This document shows, one piece after another, positions 12,757 to 22,351 of a DNA stretch of 64,000 nucleotides (position 1 is the first letter of the stretch; each line of letters begins with the position of its first letter). The notes beneath the pieces were generated by a model. The model did no database searches, was not told where the DNA came from, and worked only from the letters and a program-made list of their open reading frames with translations. Source of the stretch: Sphingopyxis terrae subsp. terrae NBRC 15098 (GTDB lineage Bacteria; Pseudomonadota; Alphaproteobacteria; Sphingomonadales; Sphingomonadaceae); the NCBI RefSeq assembly GCF_001610975.1, contig NZ_CP013342.1, positions 3,109,001 through 3,173,000 of the forward strand. The letters run 5' to 3'. The position numbers were made by a program, and so were the translations under genes.

Positions 12757-13941
12757 TCAGGTGCGTCCGGCCTTCCAGTCGCGGCGGATCTTCTTGGCAA
12801 GGCTCCATTTGTGGACCTCGGTCGGACCGTCGTAGATGCGGAAGGCGCGCACCTCGCGGAACACCTGTTCGACGATCGTGCGATCGGTGACGCCGGTCCC
12901 GCCCATCACCTGAACGCAGCGGTCGGCGATCCGCATCAGCGCTTCGGAGACCGCAACCTTTGCCATCGAGCTTTCGACCGTGCCGAGCGATCCGGTGTCG
13001 AGAACGCCGGCGCACCAGTCGATCATCAGTTCGGCCTGCTTCAGATCGATCATATTCTCGGCGAGCATGAAGCCGACGCCTTCATGCTCGATCAGCGGCT
13101 TGCCAAAGGCTTCACGCCGGTTGGCATAGTCGGTCGCGATTTCGTGCGCGCGAATGCAGCAGCCGAGCCAACGCATGCAGTGTGACAGCCGGGCGGGGGA
13201 CAGGCGGACCTGCGCGTAGCGAAAGCCTTCGCCGGCCTCACCCAGCATCTGGTCGGCGGGGATACGCAGATTGTCGATGGTCAGCGTCGCGTGCCCGCCA
13301 GGCATCGAACTGTCGATCGTGTTCGGAATCTCGTCGATGCGGATCGCCGGATCGGGCAGGTCGACGAGGAACATGCATGCGCCTTCTTCGGCCTTCGCCA
13401 TGACGATGCCGACGCGCGCGCCCTCCGCGCCGGTGATGAAGGTCTTGCGGCCGTTCACGACCCAATGATTGCCGTCGGGGCGGCAGGTCGTTTTCATCAT
13501 CGACGGATCGGACCCCGCACCGCCGTCTTCGGCGGGTTCGGTCATGAAAAAGGCCGATCGGACGCGGCCCTCGACCATCGGCTTGAGGAACCGTTCCTTG
13601 AGCTCGGGGCTGCCTTCCTTGCCGAGCAGATACATATTGCCTTCGTCGGGCGCCATCGTGTTGCAGGCGAGCGGACCGAGCGGCGACAGACCTGACTTTA
13701 TGAGGACGACCGCCGTCTCGCGCTGATTGAGGTGGCTGCCGTCGGACAGGATGTGCGGCGTCAGCACGCCCGCCGCGCGGGCATGGTCGCGCATTTCCAT
13801 CACCAGCTCGTCGGTCGGTGCGCCATGATGGTCGCGGCGCGGGTCTTTCTCATAGGGGACCACCGTCTCGCGGACGAAGGCCTCGACCTTGGCTGCGATC
13901 GCCAGCGCCCGATCCGATATGCCTTGGTGCGTCGCCGCCAT
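12757..13941 (-). CDS. Acyl-CoA dehydrogenase (ACAD10/11-like)
   Basis: A 394-aa acyl-CoA dehydrogenase with all three family domains: N-terminal helices, the FAD-binding segment FFMTEPAEDGGAGSDP followed by WVVNGRKTFITGAEGA, and the C-terminal helical domain with RREAFGKPLIEHEGV, QVMGGTGVTDRT and the terminal YDGPTEVHKWSLAKKI. The last motif resembles ACAD10/11-type enzymes. It oxidises an unidentified acyl-CoA and passes electrons to ETF. A MerR-type palindrome lies 46 bp upstream of its ATG, in the gap shared with the divergent nitronate monooxygenase gene. Confidence 0.9.
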   Translation of the reverse strand: MAATHQGISDRALAIAAKVEAFVRETVVPYEKDPRRDHHGAPTDELVMEMRDHARAAGVLTPHILSDGSHLNQRETAVVLIKSGLSPLGPLACNTMAPDEGNMYLLGKEGSPELKERFLKPMVEGRVRSAFFMTEPAEDGGAGSDPSMMKTTCRPDGNHWVVNGRKTFITGAEGARVGIVMAKAEEGACMFLVDLPDPAIRIDEIPNTIDSSMPGGHATLTIDNLRIPADQMLGEAGEGFRYAQVRLSPARLSHCMRWLGCCIRAHEIATDYANRREAFGKPLIEHEGVGFMLAENMIDLKQAELMIDWCAGVLDTGSLGTVESSMAKVAVSEALMRIADRCVQVMGGTGVTDRTIVEQVFREVRAFRIYDGPTEVHKWSLAKKIRRDWKAGRT

Positions 13942-13986
13942 TCCGATTCCCTTCGCTGTCTAACTATATCGTCTCTCAACCCGACG

Positions 13987-14002
13987 TTGACGTAAGCGTC
14001 AA
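13987..14002. promoter_or_regulatory. LiuR/MerR-type operator in divergent promoter region
   Basis: TTGACGTAAGCGTCAA is a near-perfect 16-bp palindrome located between the acyl-CoA dehydrogenase gene (minus) and the nitronate monooxygenase gene (plus). Arms TTGACG/CGTCAA are perfect. It could control either or both genes. The match with the site in front of the MerR gene suggests the same regulator. Confidence 0.7.
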
Positions 14003-14062
14003 GTTAATTCAAGGGAGAAGCAACGGTGCCGTAACGGCAGAGACAGAAGGGAAGGATGGACC

Positions 14063-15043
14063 ATGGCTTTCAAGACGCGCATCACCGAAATGCTGGGTAT
14101 CGAGCATCCGATCGTGCAGGGCGGCATGCAGAGCGTCGGCTATGCCGAACTGGCGAGCGCTGTGTCGAACGCCGGCGGCCTTGGTATCATAACCGCGCTG
14201 ACCCAGCCGAGCCCCGATGCACTGCGTGAGGAAATCGAACGCTGCCGGTCGATGACCGCCAAACCCTTTGGCGTGAACATGACCGTGTTCCCGACGATCA
14301 ACGCGCCCGATTACAAGGCCTATGCGCAGGCGATCATCGACGGCGGCGTCAAGATCGTCGAAACGGCGGGCACCCAAGCGGTGCGCGAGATTTGGGAAAT
14401 GCTCAAGCCCCATGGCGTCACCATCCTGCACAAATGCACCGCCGTGCGTCATGCGCTGTCGGCCGAAAAGGCGGGCTGCGATATAATTTCGATCGACGGC
14501 TTCGAATGTGCAGGCCATCCCGGCGAGGACGATATTCCGGGGCTGATCCTGATCCCGGCCGCCGCCGACAAGGTGAAGATCCCGATGCTGGCCTCGGGCG
14601 GCTTCGGCGACGGTCGCGGGCTGGTCGCAGCGCTGTCGCTCGGTGCCGAAGGCATCAACATGGGGACGCGCTTCTGCGCGACCAAGGAAGCGCCGATCCA
14701 CGACAATGTGAAGCAGGCCTATGTCGATAATGACGAGCGCGGCAGCTTCCTGATCTTCCGCAGCCTCAAGAACACCGCGCGCGTCGGCAAGAGCGCAGTG
14801 TCGGAGGAGGTGGTGCGCCGCCTTGCGCAGCCCGATGCGACCTTTGCCGACGTCGCCGAACTGGTCAACGGCAAGGCCGGCCGCGAACTCCTCGAAACGG
14901 GAGATCTGACGAAGGGGGTATTCTGGGCCGGGATGGTCCAGGGCCTTATCCATGATATTCCGAGCTGCCAGGAATTGATCGACCGCATCATAGCCGAGGC
15001 GGAGGCTGTCCTCGATCAGCGACTGGCCGGGTTTCGCGCCTGA
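14063..15043 (+). CDS. Nitronate monooxygenase family protein
   Basis: A 326-aa FMN-dependent TIM-barrel enzyme of the 2-nitropropane dioxygenase family. Typical elements are HPIVQGGMQSVGYAELASAVSNAGGLG at the N-terminus, KPFGVNMTV, IDGFECAGHPGE and ASGGFGDGRGLVAAL near the FMN phosphate, and NMGTRFCATKEAP. The ATG at 14063 follows GGAAGGATGGACC. It oxidises alkyl nitronates in tested relatives, but many members sit in acyl-CoA gene clusters with unknown substrates, as here beside acyl-CoA dehydrogenases. Confidence 0.87.
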   Translation: MAFKTRITEMLGIEHPIVQGGMQSVGYAELASAVSNAGGLGIITALTQPSPDALREEIERCRSMTAKPFGVNMTVFPTINAPDYKAYAQAIIDGGVKIVETAGTQAVREIWEMLKPHGVTILHKCTAVRHALSAEKAGCDIISIDGFECAGHPGEDDIPGLILIPAAADKVKIPMLASGGFGDGRGLVAALSLGAEGINMGTRFCATKEAPIHDNVKQAYVDNDERGSFLIFRSLKNTARVGKSAVSEEVVRRLAQPDATFADVAELVNGKAGRELLETGDLTKGVFWAGMVQGLIHDIPSCQELIDRIIAEAEAVLDQRLAGFRA

Positions 15044-15061
15044 ACGGCCTTCCCAAAGAAA

Positions 15062-15090
15062 TGCCCCGCCGGTGGGACGCCGGCAGGGCA
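15062..15090. terminator. Hairpin after the nitronate monooxygenase gene
   Basis: An 11-bp stem (TGCCCCGCCGG with its complement, one mismatch) and a 7-base loop begins 19 bp after the stop codon. No T-tract follows, so it is at best a weak intrinsic terminator. The rest of the 232-bp gap up to 15275 shows no gene. Confidence 0.4.
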
Positions 15091-15275
15091 GTTGGGGGAG
15101 GTGATCTGGGTGGCAACTGGTGCAGGGTTGCCGTGAACGCAGGTTCGATCACCGGAACCTGCCATCCGCTTTTGGCAAGGGTGCGGTTCCCCGACTTTGA
15201 CTTGCATCAACAAGCGAAAATAATCATGCCCGACCGGTCGCCGCCGCGGCACCGGACGAAAGAGATTTTCACGGC

Positions 15276-16502
15276 ATGAGCATCGTTCATTATCAGGGCT
15301 TCGCAGGAACCCGCCTCGAAGCGGACGTCATCGGATCGGATAATGACCCGGCGGTGCTGCTGCTTCACGGTGCGGGCCAGACGCGCGCGATCTGGTCGAA
15401 TGTCGCCGACGCGCTCGAACAGGCCGGCCGCCGCGTCATCAGCCTCGACCTTCGGGGACATGGCGGAAGCGAGTGGCCCGAGGATGGGCGCTATGACTTC
15501 GATGCGTTGGTCGGCGATCTGCGCGCGGTGCTGGCACAGCTCGGCACGCGGCCGGTCGTCGTCGCCTCGACCCTCGGAGGATGGATCGCCGCTGCCGCGC
15601 TCGAACGCGACGCGGCGGTGCTCGCCTCGGGGCTGGTGCTCGTCGACCTGCCGGTCAGTGACGATGTAACGATGGCGCAGCGCATCGGTGACCGCCTGCG
15701 CGAAGCGGCCAACCGGGCGCCTGGTCAGGCGGCATGGGACGCCCGGCTGTTCGAAGCCTTCGACGCCGCTACCGTGACCGAGCGGCTTTCGGGGATCGCC
15801 CCCAATATAGCCTTGCCGACGCTCTATGTCCGCGGCGCGATGAGCGAACTTGTCTCGCGCGCCTCGGCGGCGGCGTTCGTCGGCCAGCTCCCCGATGGCG
15901 AACTGGTCGAGGTGGAGGACGCCGCGCTGGTCGTCACCGAAGACCGGATCGATGCGCTCGGCGCGCATCTGATCGACTTTCTCGAGCGCCGCGCACCGCG
16001 CGGCTGGCCCGAATATCGCGCTGGGTCCGATGCGCGGACCTTTCGCGACGCACTCGGCTGTTTCGCGACCGGCGTCACCGTCGTCACAGCCATCGATGCG
16101 GCGGGCCAGCCGATCGGCCTCACCGCCAACAGCTTCACCTCGGTATCGCTCGACCCGCCGCTCCTCCTCGTTTGCATCGCCAACAATGCCGGCAGCGCGG
16201 CGGTGCTGCGCGAAGCGGAGCATTTCGCGGTCAATGTGCTCCAGATCGGCCAGCAGCCGACGTCGAATCGCTTTGCGGGCAAGGGCGAGGACCGCTTCGC
16301 GGCAACCGGGTGGGAGATCGGCGAGTTCGGTACGCCGGTGCTGTCGGGATCGCTCAGCAGTTTCGAATGCGCGCGCGAGGCAGTGCATCCGGGCGGCGAT
16401 CATTTCATTCTTGTCGGCCGCGTCCTGAAAGCGATCTTCGAACCGCGCCGCGATCCCTTGCTCTACTTCCGCGGCAAATATCGCAAGCTGCACTTCGCCT
16501 GA
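15276..16502 (+). CDS. Alpha/beta hydrolase (triad-less) fused to flavin reductase domain
   Basis: A 408-aa two-domain protein. Residues ~1-245 follow the alpha/beta hydrolase fold: LLLHGAGQTRAIW oxyanion strand, LDLRGHGGS, and a nucleophile elbow. The elbow reads VVASTLGG, putting Thr where the nucleophile Ser should be; the usual GHxV histidine region reads EDAALVV (no His) and the acid strand ends VRGAMSELV. Residues ~255-405 are an FMN-binding flavin reductase domain (FRDALGCFATGVTVVTA, LTANSFTSVSLDPPLLLVCI, AVNVLQIGQQPTSNRFAG, HFILVGRV). The flavin domain would supply reduced flavin to a monooxygenase, while the hydrolase half looks non-catalytic. The frame is continuous without internal stop, so it is a true fusion. 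No monooxygenase gene is adjacent. Confidence 0.85.
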   Translation: MSIVHYQGFAGTRLEADVIGSDNDPAVLLLHGAGQTRAIWSNVADALEQAGRRVISLDLRGHGGSEWPEDGRYDFDALVGDLRAVLAQLGTRPVVVASTLGGWIAAAALERDAAVLASGLVLVDLPVSDDVTMAQRIGDRLREAANRAPGQAAWDARLFEAFDAATVTERLSGIAPNIALPTLYVRGAMSELVSRASAAAFVGQLPDGELVEVEDAALVVTEDRIDALGAHLIDFLERRAPRGWPEYRAGSDARTFRDALGCFATGVTVVTAIDAAGQPIGLTANSFTSVSLDPPLLLVCIANNAGSAAVLREAEHFAVNVLQIGQQPTSNRFAGKGEDRFAATGWEIGEFGTPVLSGSLSSFECAREAVHPGGDHFILVGRVLKAIFEPRRDPLLYFRGKYRKLHFA

Positions 16503-16527
16503 GGTAAGGCGCCAATTTCGGCGGTTA

Positions 16528-16603
16528 TGGTGAGCCCTGCTGGGTTCGAACCAGCGACCTACTGATTAAAAGTCAGTTGCTCTACCGACTGAGCTAAGGG
16601 CCC
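16528..16603 (-). tRNA. tRNA-Lys (TTT anticodon)
   Basis: Read on the minus strand the segment folds as a cloverleaf: acceptor GGGCCCT pairs with AGGGCTC (one G-U), D-arm AGCTCAGTCGGTAGAGC, anticodon stem CTGAC/GTCAG with loop CTTTTAA giving anticodon TTT, and T-arm GCTGGTTCGAACCCAGC. CCA is encoded at the 3' end (16528-16530). It lies between the hydrolase/flavin reductase fusion and folK. Confidence 0.97.
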
Positions 16604-16647
16604 ATCGCGGACCGCGCGGGGGCGGTGTGCGAAAGCGAGCCGTCGCC

Positions 16648-17175
16648 CTAGTGCGCCGAAGCGCCGTGGTCAACCGGCTTTGCCCGCGAAAGACGCGCGG
16701 CGAGTTGGCGGACGCTTTGGCCGCTGAGCGGATGGCGCCAGGCGGGTGCGATCATGCGGAGCGGGCCGAGCACGAAATCGCGCACGGTCATTGCCGCGTG
16801 CGGCACGGTGAGCGCCGCATCGCTCCATGCGCCCTCCGACCACAGCAATATGTCGAGGTCGAGCGTGCGTGCGCCCCAGCGCTGGCCGCGCCGCCGTCCG
16901 AAAGCAGCTTCGATGGCTTTCAGCCGATCGAGCATCTCGGGCGGGCTGAGCGGCGAGGCGACGAGCGCGACGGCATTGGCGTAGCGGCGGCGCGAAGGGC
17001 CGATCGGCGCACTCGCGACGATCGGGCTCGCATCGACGGGTTCGATATCGTCGCTTTCGAGCGCGGCGAGTGCTGCGAGCAACACGCGCCGCGGATCACC
17101 GAAACGGACGTGGCAGCGGTTCGAACCAAGGCCGATGGCATAGAGGGGGAGGGGCGTTGCGCTGGTCATGCCCAT
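16648..17175 (-). CDS. folK: 2-amino-4-hydroxy-6-hydroxymethyldihydropteridine diphosphokinase
   Basis: A 175-aa HPPK that transfers pyrophosphate from ATP to hydroxymethyldihydropterin in folate synthesis. IGLGSN near the start, the signature RWGARTLDLDILL and VPHAAMTVRDFVLGPL are present. It starts at 17175 or at the ATG at 17169 two codons in. The gene is divergent from the uracil-DNA glycosylase gene, with only about 17 bp between starts, so their promoters must overlap coding sequence. Confidence 0.93.
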   Translation of the reverse strand: MGMTSATPLPLYAIGLGSNRCHVRFGDPRRVLLAALAALESDDIEPVDASPIVASAPIGPSRRRYANAVALVASPLSPPEMLDRLKAIEAAFGRRRGQRWGARTLDLDILLWSEGAWSDAALTVPHAAMTVRDFVLGPLRMIAPAWRHPLSGQSVRQLAARLSRAKPVDHGASAH

Positions 17176-17192
17176 GCGCCTATCGCAGCGGG

Positions 17193-17882
17193 GTGAAGAT
17201 TGACAGCCCCTTGCCCGGTACCGAGCCGCCGCGCGATTGCCGACGTTGCCCGCGCCTTGTCGGGTTGCGTGCCGCCTGTCGCGTTGAGCATCCCGATTGG
17301 TGGAATGCCCCCGTCTATGCTTTCGGCGACCCCGATGCGTGGCTTGCCATCGCCGGGCTCGCGCCGGGAAAGCACGGCGCCAACCGCACCGGGCGGCCGT
17401 TTACCGGAGATTATGCGGGCGACCTGTTGTTCGAAACGCTCGCCGCCTTCGGGCTCAGCCGCGGCGTCTATGACGGGCAGATCGACGACGGGCTGCGCCT
17501 GGACGGAACGATCATCGTCAACAGCGTCAAATGCCTGCCGCCGCAGAACAAGCCGACGCCCGCCGAAATCGCCGCCTGCCGACCCTATTTCGAGGGACAG
17601 CTCGCGGCGCTGCCACAGGTCAGGGTGCTGATCGCACTCGGCCGAATTGCGCATGACGCGGCGGTTCGCGCTGCGGGCGGACGGCTCGCCGCCTATCGGT
17701 TTGCGCATGGCGCGGTGCATCGCCTGCCCGACGGGCGCCATCTGGTCGATAGCTATCACTGCTCGCGCTACAACACGAACACCGGGCGACTGACGCCGGC
17801 GATGTTCGCCGACGTCTTTCGCACCGCCGTCGCATTGCGCGATCAGACCAGTGGGCGGAATTCGTCGACGACGGCGCGGTAA
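17193..17882 (+). CDS. Type 5 (UDGb) uracil-DNA glycosylase
   Basis: A 229-aa Fe-S uracil-DNA glycosylase of family 5. Motif A is GLAPGKHGANRTGRPFTGD and the C-terminal motif DSYHCSRYNTNTGRLTP corresponds to the family HCSxxNTxTGRLT. Likely 4Fe-4S ligands are the CRRC pair near the start plus cysteines in VKCLPPQNK and AACRPYF. It removes uracil and some deaminated purines from DNA. I take GTG at 17193 as start because the cysteine motif follows closely; the frame is open to 17070 inside folK. Its last 40 bp overlap the convergent rppH gene. Confidence 0.92.
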   Translation: MKIDSPLPGTEPPRDCRRCPRLVGLRAACRVEHPDWWNAPVYAFGDPDAWLAIAGLAPGKHGANRTGRPFTGDYAGDLLFETLAAFGLSRGVYDGQIDDGLRLDGTIIVNSVKCLPPQNKPTPAEIAACRPYFEGQLAALPQVRVLIALGRIAHDAAVRAAGGRLAAYRFAHGAVHRLPDGRHLVDSYHCSRYNTNTGRLTPAMFADVFRTAVALRDQTSGRNSSTTAR

Positions 17883-19454: not shown

Positions 19455-21317
19455 ATGGCGACAGTGGTCGAGGACCGGGCCGAAGATCGGCAGTCCCCCC
19501 TTTCCGACGCAGTGGTGGTTCGTTTCGCGGGCGACAGCGGCGACGGGATGCAGCTGACCGGTGGTCAGTTCACGCTTTCGACGGCGCTCGCGGGCAATGA
19601 CCTGGCGACTTTCCCTGATTTTCCGGCCGAAATCCGCGCGCCGCAGGGCACGCTGTTCGGTGTTTCGGCGTTCCAGATCAATTTCGGGTCGAGCGAGATC
19701 ACGACCGCGGGCGACGCCCCCGACGTGCTCGTCGCGATGAACCCCGCGGCGCTCAAGACCAATGTCGGCGTACTCAAGCTGGGCGGCCTGATCATCGCCG
19801 ACGAAGGCGAATTCAACGACCGCAATCTCGCCAAGGCGAAATATGACGCCAACCCGCTCGAGGATGGCAGCCTTGCGAAATGGCAGCTTCTGAAGCTCAA
19901 CATCAGTCAGGCGACGATGGATGCGGTCAAGCCGTTCGGGCTCGGCAACAAGGAAGCGCTGCGCTGCAAGAATATGTGGACGCTCGGCCTTGCGCTGTGG
20001 ATGTTCGACCGCGACCGCCAGCCGCTGATCGAGTGGCTGAAGGCGAAATTCGCCAAGGATCCCAATCTTGCCGAAGCGAATATCGCGGCGCTCAATGCGG
20101 GCCATGCCTATGGCGAAACCGCCGAACTCGCGGGACCGCTCAAGCAGCATCATGTCGCGCCGGCGCCCGCCGAACCCGGCCTCTATCGTACGCTGACCGG
20201 CGCCGAGGGCATCGCGCTCGGCCTTGTCGCCGGGGCGCAGCTTGCGCATCTGCCGATGTTCTTCGGCGGCTATCCGATCACGCCCGCATCGGCAATCCTC
20301 CACCATCTGTCGCGGCTCAAGGAATATGACGTCACGACCTTTCAGGCCGAGGATGAAATCGCCGCCATCTGTTCGGCAATCGGTGCGAGCTACGCAGGGT
20401 CGCTGGGCGTCACCAGCTCGTCGGGACCGGGTATCGCGCTGAAGGGCGAGGCAATGGGCCTCGCGATCATGACCGAACTGCCGCTCGTCATCGTCAATTC
20501 GCAGCGTGGCGGCCCGTCGACGGGCCTGCCGACCAAGACCGAACAGTCGGATCTCTATCAGGCTGTCTATGGCCGCAACGGCGATGCGCCGATGCCGGTG
20601 ATCGCCGCGCGCTCGCCTGGTGACGCGTTCGAATGCGCGATCGAGGCGTGCCGGATCGCGGTCCAATATATGACGCCGGTGATGTTGCTGACCGACGGCT
20701 ATATCGCCAACGCGGCCGAGCCGTGGAAAGTCCCCGACCTGACCGCCTATGAAGCCTTCCCGGTCGAATTTCTGACCCAGGTACCGGAAGGCGGCTTCAA
20801 ACCCTATGGCCGCGACGAAAAGCTCGCGCGCCCGTGGGTGAAGCCGGGTACGCCCGACCTGTTGCACCGGATCGGCGGGATCGAGAAAGAGATCGACACC
20901 GGTCACATCAATTATGCGCCCGAAAATCACCAGGCGATGACCGACATTCGCAAGGCGAAGATCGACGGGGTCAAGGTTCCCGACCAGATCGTCGAACTCG
21001 GCGCCGAGGGCGGCAAGCTTGCGATCGTCGGCTGGGGATCGACCTATGGCCCGATCCATCAGGCGGTGCGCCGCAAGCGCGCCGAAGGGAAGGACGTCAG
21101 CCAGATTCACCTGCGCCATATCTGGCCGCTCCCCGCCAATCTGGGCGAATTGCTCAAAAGCTATGACAAGGTGATCGTGCCCGAAATGAACACGGGCCAG
21201 CTCAAGACGGTGCTGCGCGACCAGTATCTGGTCGATGCCAAGCCGCTCAACAAGGTGTCGGGCCAGCCCTTCCGGATTGCCGAAATCGAAGCTGCCATCG
21301 AGGAGGCGCTCCAGTGA
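19455..21317 (+). CDS. korA: 2-oxoglutarate:ferredoxin oxidoreductase, alpha subunit (gamma-alpha fusion)
   Basis: A 620-aa subunit in which the gamma domain comes first (residues ~20-190, VVRFAGDSGDGMQLTGGQF) and the alpha pyrimidine-binding domain second (TGAEGIALG, FFGGYPITPASAIL, TSSSGPGIALKGEA, NSQRGGPSTGLPTKTEQSD). The C-terminal part has VGWGSTYGPIHQAV. With the beta subunit it interconverts 2-oxoacids plus CoA and acyl-CoA plus CO2, reducing ferredoxin. The order gamma-alpha then beta and lengths fit KorAB-type enzymes found also in aerobes. The next gene overlaps by 4 bp. Its promoter is not clear; a GGGCCTAGGCCC palindrome lies at 19404-19415. Confidence 0.92.
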   Translation: MATVVEDRAEDRQSPLSDAVVVRFAGDSGDGMQLTGGQFTLSTALAGNDLATFPDFPAEIRAPQGTLFGVSAFQINFGSSEITTAGDAPDVLVAMNPAALKTNVGVLKLGGLIIADEGEFNDRNLAKAKYDANPLEDGSLAKWQLLKLNISQATMDAVKPFGLGNKEALRCKNMWTLGLALWMFDRDRQPLIEWLKAKFAKDPNLAEANIAALNAGHAYGETAELAGPLKQHHVAPAPAEPGLYRTLTGAEGIALGLVAGAQLAHLPMFFGGYPITPASAILHHLSRLKEYDVTTFQAEDEIAAICSAIGASYAGSLGVTSSSGPGIALKGEAMGLAIMTELPLVIVNSQRGGPSTGLPTKTEQSDLYQAVYGRNGDAPMPVIAARSPGDAFECAIEACRIAVQYMTPVMLLTDGYIANAAEPWKVPDLTAYEAFPVEFLTQVPEGGFKPYGRDEKLARPWVKPGTPDLLHRIGGIEKEIDTGHINYAPENHQAMTDIRKAKIDGVKVPDQIVELGAEGGKLAIVGWGSTYGPIHQAVRRKRAEGKDVSQIHLRHIWPLPANLGELLKSYDKVIVPEMNTGQLKTVLRDQYLVDAKPLNKVSGQPFRIAEIEAAIEEALQ

Positions 21318-22351
21318 ACGAGATGACGACCATCGCCCGCACGACGACGCTCAAGGATTGGGAAACCGATCAGGAAGTGCGCTGGTGCCCCGGCTGCGGC
21401 GACTATGCGATCCTGAAGGCGGTGCAGCGCACCCTGCCCGAAATTGGCGCAGTGCCCGAAAGCACCGTGTTCATCAGCGGGATCGGCTGCTCGTCGCGCT
21501 TTCCCTATTATGTCGAAAGCTACGGCTTCCATACGATCCATGGCCGTGCGCCGGCGTTCGCGACGGGGCTGAAGCTTGCCAATCCCGAACTCGACGTGTG
21601 GATCGTCACCGGCGACGGCGATGGTCTGTCGATCGGCGGCAATCACACGATGCACCTCATCCGGCGGAACCTCGATTGCCAGATCATGCTGTTCAACAAC
21701 GAGATTTACGGGCTGACCAAGGGCCAATATTCGCCTACCAGCCGCGTCGGCACCAACAGCCCGTCGACCCCGTTCGGCTCGGTCGACCGCCCGGCGCAGC
21801 CCTGCGCCTTCGCACTCGGCGCGGGCGCCCGCTTCGTTGCGCGCGGCTTCGATGTGTCGAAGGAACTGCCGAATGTTCTGAAAGCGGCCCATGCGCACAA
21901 GGGCGCGGCCTTTATCGAAATCTTCCAGAACTGCATCGTCTATAACAAGGACGTGTTCCAGGATTTCGCCGCGCCGAAGGGCGCTGAAGACCGCCAGCTC
22001 TGGCTCCAGAACGGGGAACCGATGCTGTTTGCCAAGGGCGCGAAGGGCATCGCGCTCGATCAGGAGGCGCTGACGCTCAAGGTCGTCGATGTCGTCGATG
22101 GCGACTGGCAGGCAGCGGGCGTGATCGTCCACGACGTCACCAACCGCAGCGTCGCGCACATGCTCGTGGAAATGCGCTTCGGCGAATTCCCGATGGCGCT
22201 CGGTGTCCTCTACGACGATCCGCGTCCGACTTTCGAAGCCGACGTATGGCGCCAGAACAAGGCGGCGGCTGAGGGCAAGAAGGCCGATCTGCAGAGCCTG
22301 CTCAAGAAAGGGCAGACCTGGACGGTCAGCGAAGGCGGGCCCGATCTCTGA
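21314..22351 (+). CDS. korB: 2-oxoglutarate:ferredoxin oxidoreductase, beta subunit
   Basis: A 345-aa thiamine diphosphate-binding subunit. RWCPGCGDYAIL carries the Fe-S cysteine pair, GIGCSSRFPYY a third cysteine, and TGDGDGLSIGGNH is the thiamine diphosphate/Mg site; NNEIYGLTKGQYSPTS is typical of KorB. Start GTG at 21314 overlaps the korA stop (GTGA), with ATG at 21323 as alternative. It pairs with KorA. No ferredoxin gene is next to it. Confidence 0.93.
   Translation: MNEMTTIARTTTLKDWETDQEVRWCPGCGDYAILKAVQRTLPEIGAVPESTVFISGIGCSSRFPYYVESYGFHTIHGRAPAFATGLKLANPELDVWIVTGDGDGLSIGGNHTMHLIRRNLDCQIMLFNNEIYGLTKGQYSPTSRVGTNSPSTPFGSVDRPAQPCAFALGAGARFVARGFDVSKELPNVLKAAHAHKGAAFIEIFQNCIVYNKDVFQDFAAPKGAEDRQLWLQNGEPMLFAKGAKGIALDQEALTLKVVDVVDGDWQAAGVIVHDVTNRSVAHMLVEMRFGEFPMALGVLYDDPRPTFEADVWRQNKAAAEGKKADLQSLLKKGQTWTVSEGGPDL

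Follow-up and report, generated by a model that had tools for sequence, protein, structure and literature searches.

HpaC-like short-chain flavin reductases are defined by two motifs, (S/T/C)xxPP and GDH (PMC11795597). The members HsaB, FerA, BorF, ThdF and the C1 component of p-hydroxyphenylacetate hydroxylase (HPAH) belong to Pfam family PF01613, carry both motifs and have the same fold as the reductase part of the fusion protein described here; unlike it, none of the solved relatives listed has an N-terminal hydrolase-fold domain. The closest solved reductase domains, C1 and 3rh7 (SMa0793), likewise combine a reductase with an added domain, but the extra part is C-terminal there (chains of 315-321 amino acids matched at residues 15-166) and N-terminal in the fusion. 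The extra domain of C1 is not a hydrolase fold. A hydrolase and an HpaC-like reductase also accompany a luciferase-like monooxygenase in the Rut system (RutD and RutF with RutA), in parallel to a rhizobial operon described below. Among alpha/beta-hydrolase pseudoenzymes, GID1 and neuroligin have kept the fold after loss of the catalytic triad and bind hormones or partner proteins; the fusion shares with them the fold without the triad, whereas hormone or partner binding is theirs and is not demonstrated for the fusion. Among the open-licence papers searched, we found none describing this hydrolase-flavin reductase fusion.

The window, a 64,000-nucleotide stretch of the genome of Sphingopyxis terrae subsp. 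terrae NBRC 15098 (contig NZ_CP013342.1, positions 3,109,001 to 3,173,000), encodes this protein of 408 amino acids at 15276-16502 on the plus strand, where a single unbroken frame of 408 codons runs from an ATG at 15276 to a stop ending at 16502. Pfam matches cover both halves: Abhydrolase_1 at residues 25-125 (6e-19), Abhydrolase_6 at 27-231 (1.5e-15) and Flavin_Reduct at 261-405 (1.2e-41), with both hydrolase profiles above their cut-offs (PF00561, 69 bits; PF12697, 58.9 bits). Full-length orthologues occur in Sphingopyxis, Sphingorhabdus, Novosphingobium, Hyphomonas and on an Agrobacterium vitis plasmid, with a more distant one on a Cupriavidus plasmid. Their presence in many independent assemblies rules out a frameshift, assembly or annotation artefact, and the fused frame is therefore real. 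The stretch around the domain junction (residues 221-260) has no in-frame ATG, GTG or TTG, which makes it unlikely that the reductase is also produced on its own from a start at that point.

The hydrolase-fold domain spans residues 1-240 (15276-15995, plus strand). Its assignment comes from Pfam, from the secondary structure of an AlphaFold2 model and from Foldseek, which pairs it with esterase 4uhc and thioesterase 3qit. Within it, the cap region occupies residues 121-180 (15636-15815), and the last helix, residues 222-239 (15939-15992), ends in DFLERR; both conservation and model secondary structure mark this helix, which is kept even in the short and shrunken fusions discussed below. The AlphaFold2 model has a mean pLDDT of 81.6 and a modest pTM of 0.60, so that the model is no reliable guide to how the two domains sit relative to each other.

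The flavin reductase domain follows at residues 249-408 (16020-16499, plus strand). It scores 142.8 bits against PF01613 (curated cut-off 27) and contains SLDPP, an (S/T/C)xxPP motif, at residues 291-295 (16146-16160) and GDH at residues 374-376 (16395-16403). The split beta-barrel reductase fold is present in the model, with Foldseek matches to 3rh7, C1 of HPAH, SgcE6, CtcQ, BorF and FerA. The domain is also recognised by HsaB, FerA and C1-HPAH models below their cut-offs; since the NCBIfam equivalog cut-offs are not reached (HsaB, 160.2 versus 230; FerA, 157 versus 260; HpaC, 83.7 versus 205.95), we claim no specific named reductase, and the predicted activity is NAD(P)H-dependent reduction of free flavin. 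A first-pass annotation made from the letters alone had proposed a fused frame joining an N-terminal half with hydrolase-fold landmarks to a complete-looking flavin reductase; the orthologues, profiles, motifs and fold matches agree with it on all three points.

The triad of catalytic serine hydrolases is absent from the N-terminal half. With the intact Hyphomonas protein L058 as reference, Ser99, Asp189 and His216 align with Thr99 (15570-15572, in VVASTLGG), Glu191 (15846-15848) and Leu218 (15927-15929, in EDAALVV, a low-confidence loop in the model) of the window protein, all on the plus strand. The threonine at the nucleophile position and the missing histidine had been read correctly from the sequence; of the reported changed acid strand, what stands is that the aspartate is replaced, and the change is only from Asp to Glu. 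Glutamate can act as the catalytic acid in some hydrolases, and on this alignment the decisive losses are those of nucleophile and histidine rather than of the acid. A displaced triad is ruled out, as Ser98 is not conserved in orthologues and the only histidines of the domain are His5 and those of the HG and GHG structural motifs. The earlier view of a non-catalytic hydrolase half is thus supported: the triad is neither intact nor displaced, and it is lost in all sampled Sphingopyxis and Novosphingobium orthologues. The domain might still be an enzyme without a classical triad, for example one using Thr99 or carrying out cofactor-free lyase or oxygenase chemistry, and Thr99, Glu191 and an oxyanion-type HGAG loop are indeed retained in most Sphingopyxis sequences. 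We consider this very improbable, however, given the shortage of histidines, the freedom of position 218 to vary (L, F, M, R, P) and the methionine at position 99 in a Sphingorhabdus relative; to our knowledge, the alternative chemistries of the alpha/beta-hydrolase fold keep the histidine. In the same genome, the free-standing protein most closely related to the dead domain (L002; L193:6981-7856) keeps Ser, Asp and His. Its gene directly abuts a small gene that by appearance resembles a thioesterase.

Whether the triad is always lost in such fusions had been raised as a question, and a family-wide alignment answers it in the negative. Hyphomonas fusions retain it: 14 of 88 non-redundant fusions, all on the Hyphomonas branch, have an intact Ser-(Asp/Glu)-His triad (ten Ser-Asp-His and four Ser-Glu-His), compared with none of the sampled Sphingomonadaceae fusions. 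Other states among the 88 are S-R-H, T-E-H, S-E-Q, S-Q-L, T-W-L and R/G-A/P-L, and this retention of different triad subsets in different lineages is the pattern expected for repeated decay from an intact ancestor. On a FastTree phylogeny built without the three triad columns, and with only losses allowed, the serine was lost about nine times and the histidine about seven times. Counts of acid loss and of full-triad loss are rough because the acid column is poorly aligned in distant rows (the Mesorhizobium fusion L173, for instance, is scored as Arg although an Asp sits one residue off). The contig search for fusions used one query protein (P0001), and distant fusions are therefore under-sampled.

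Decay appears to have gone beyond the catalytic residues. In one Sphingopyxis sub-clade the cap is mostly missing (residues about 131-172), a second group of Sphingomonadaceae fusions has a hydrolase domain that has shrunk further, and three groups of stand-alone reductases, which start just upstream of the reductase domain, are nested within the fusion clade in a tree of the C-terminal domain. That tree has several open forks and some long branches, which makes the number of whole-domain losses approximate, and some of the nested stand-alone genes could be due to gene transfer. Judged from these sequences, the relatives represent all stages, namely an intact hydrolase, a lost triad, a deleted cap and a domain that is gone altogether, and the reductase is intact throughout.

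Pairwise dN/dS values, given here for the hydrolase half and the reductase half, respectively, are 0.096/0.050 in intact Hyphomonas fusions, 0.062/0.032 in Hyphomonas fusions of the S-E-Q type, 0.187/0.080 in Novosphingobium, 0.195/0.077 in Sphingopyxis, 0.231/0.055 in cap-deleted fusions and 0.467/0.133 in shrunken fusions. The low values of the S-E-Q group indicate that loss of the histidine alone was not accompanied by relaxation. In Sphingopyxis, sliding pN/pS is loosest in the cap (0.37-0.54), the region mostly absent from the short forms, intermediate in the former acid and histidine segments (about 0.32) and tight (0.12-0.16) at residues 61-120, a segment that contains the former nucleophile elbow and is about as constrained as the reductase. 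The hydrolase half in Sphingopyxis is thus relaxed yet far from neutral and still under selection; with a dN/dS of about 0.2 overall and the tight segment within it, this half is clearly constrained and not a mere passenger.

This constraint, maintained despite triad loss, would fit a working pseudoenzyme that regulates or channels the supply of reduced flavin, either by ligand binding or by serving as the docking site of a flavin-using monooxygenase or halogenase. There is a precedent in C1 of HPAH, where a non-catalytic appended domain regulates the flavin reductase, and the A. vitis fusion shares a cluster with an HsaA-like oxygenase. Such a role is a possibility, though not a likely one: the cap and the former acid and histidine loops are under relaxed constraint, one Sphingopyxis sub-clade has deleted the cap, the entire domain is missing from nested relatives, and the neighbours vary by lineage with no oxygenase consistently adjacent. 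Nested whole-domain loss, cap deletion and relaxed selection together argue that a ligand-binding or docking role is not needed across the family, while, given the constraint on residues 61-120, the domain may have some lineage-specific role in Sphingopyxis. On balance, the protein is probably a general NADH:flavin reductase that carries a dead, partly retained hydrolase remnant of a once bifunctional enzyme. Its N-terminal domain would descend from an active serine hydrolase of that bifunctional ancestor; in Sphingopyxis it would be catalytically dead and retained mainly as a folded structural part. It would be decaying in steps that begin with the catalytic residues and go on to the cap and most of the domain, with complete loss reached in other lineages.

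A bifunctional ancestor is plausible because hydrolase/reductase gene pairs in the same clusters suggest shared pathways. On Rhizobiaceae and Roseobacteraceae plasmids, an operon for AA_synth, an alpha/beta hydrolase, a flavin reductase, a luciferase-like (LLM) monooxygenase and an aldehyde dehydrogenase is conserved (L174:7211-9998, L175:7168-9982, L176:7246-10006 and L177:7226-10010). In Shinella, Rhizobium and Leisingera the hydrolase and reductase are separate adjacent genes in this operon with the LLM monooxygenase, whereas the Sphingopyxis gene has no LLM gene adjacent; unlike the Sphingopyxis fusion, the hydrolases of the rhizobial operon retain GHSMG and a histidine. A plasmid of Mesorhizobium sp. 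WSM1497 (L173:7386-9185) encodes a hydrolase-flavin reductase fusion of 599 amino acids with a GHSMG nucleophile motif and an LLM monooxygenase directly after it; according to the tree, this fusion arose separately from the Sphingopyxis type.

We also compared the neighbourhoods of the fusion gene. In the window it is preceded by an NMO-family gene (PF03060; 14063-15043, plus strand) and by three acyl-CoA dehydrogenase genes that lie on the other strand, and SDR, thiolase and CoA-transferase genes are also present. The NMO gene lies beside the fusion in several Sphingopyxis genomes, and the acyl-CoA dehydrogenase/thiolase/SDR/NMO context is common to several relatives. A conserved NMO-reductase operon was nevertheless rejected: only some members of the genus have the NMO gene next to the fusion, and the two genes are separated by 232 bp in which a hairpin and a promoter-like site lie. 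The hairpin (15062-15090) is strong and G+C-rich, with a T-rich tail on the minus strand only. The promoter-like site, TTGACT-16-AATAAT at 15197-15224 on the plus strand upstream of the ATG, weakly suggests that the fusion gene has its own transcription (the consensus scan of 13900-16700 on both strands found two sites, with 0.5 expected). Elsewhere in the window, at 16648-17882, a minus-strand HPPK gene and a plus-strand UDG-family gene share about 100 bases, provided that the UDG-family gene really starts at its upstream GTG, and two overlapping genes at 19455-22351 resemble, by appearance, the alpha and beta subunits of 2-oxoacid:ferredoxin oxidoreductase.

Other Sphingopyxis genomes have a different neighbourhood, with GntR, SCP2-type thiolase, OB_ChsH2, CoA-transferase, APH and SDR genes around the fusion; in one such cluster a neighbouring gene (L105:4029-6230) encodes a single protein of 734 amino acids in which a CoA-transferase family III stretch occurs twice. 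The A. vitis fusion is part of a ring-cleavage cluster that includes the HsaA-like oxygenase (245 bits, below the cut-off of 450). This stretch of plasmid pAt (L172:1233-9194) also contains genes for an amidohydrolase, an aldo/keto reductase, an FAH-family hydrolase and two members of the VOC family, of which one scores as an extradiol dioxygenase, and looks like an uncharacterised aromatic ring-cleavage pathway. The acyl-CoA dehydrogenase context of the window, the thiolase/OB_ChsH2 context of other relatives and the extradiol cluster of A. vitis could all mean that the fusion is a dedicated pathway enzyme of CoA-ester or aromatic catabolism and not a general reductase. We regard this as quite unlikely, because two unrelated neighbourhoods occur within one genus, many relatives have neither, a promoter-like site and a gap precede the window gene, and nearly all genomes sampled from the genus contain the fusion. 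These same features suggest a general role, in which an HpaC-like, short-chain, NADH-dependent reductase would provide free reduced flavin to any flavin-using oxygenases in the cell.

The fusion is the only PF01613 protein in the genome ("sole" refers here to this family alone). At least one PF01613 protein is present in each of 60 Sphingopyxis genomes and exactly one in 35 of them; in 34 of these 35 the match lies in an open frame of at least 369 codons, as expected for the fusion, and by this length they are putative fusions. Of the monooxygenase partner that the first-pass annotation suggested looking for, the genome offers two candidates away from the gene, one MsnO8-type LLM protein and a halogenase that scores 633 bits against PF04820 and contains GEATIP and WQWRIP; no oxygenase or other acceptor gene adjoins the window gene or, in the neighbourhood comparison, consistently adjoins the fusion, and an HpaB_N search of the genome scored under the cut-off. 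The gene of this single PF04820 halogenase (L192:8954-10486) adjoins a TonB-type receptor gene and genes that by appearance are amylase-like. A steroid HsaA/HsaB partnership was considered and rejected, as the top PF08028 proteins examined are, by their scores, ordinary acyl-CoA dehydrogenases; a search of the genome run without a positive control gave no HsaA-like match. As no acceptor enzyme lies next to the gene, we infer rather than observe the flow of reduced flavin to acceptors. That the hydrolase domain took on a new function in Sphingomonadaceae, as a module for docking or sensing that steers reduced flavin from the only HpaC-like reductase to these acceptors, is in our estimate unlikely.

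A 2025 study of Caenibius tardaugens reported that the genome has just one flavin reductase and that the monooxygenase gene has no evident partner next to it (PMC12239570). This is the same partner question, and we claim no homology between that reductase and the fusion. For many Sphingopyxis species, the fusion is identified here as the sole HpaC-like flavin reductase, and it is a likely missing partner of their flavin-dependent halogenases and monooxygenases. If the docking or sensing reading were true, it would represent a hydrolase-derived regulator of flavin supply, new to description. The family provides a well-sampled natural series that starts with an apparently intact bifunctional enzyme, passes through loss of the triad and deletion of the cap, and ends with the hydrolase domain gone and its partner domain still unchanged. 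It is thus well suited to studying why dead domains are kept.
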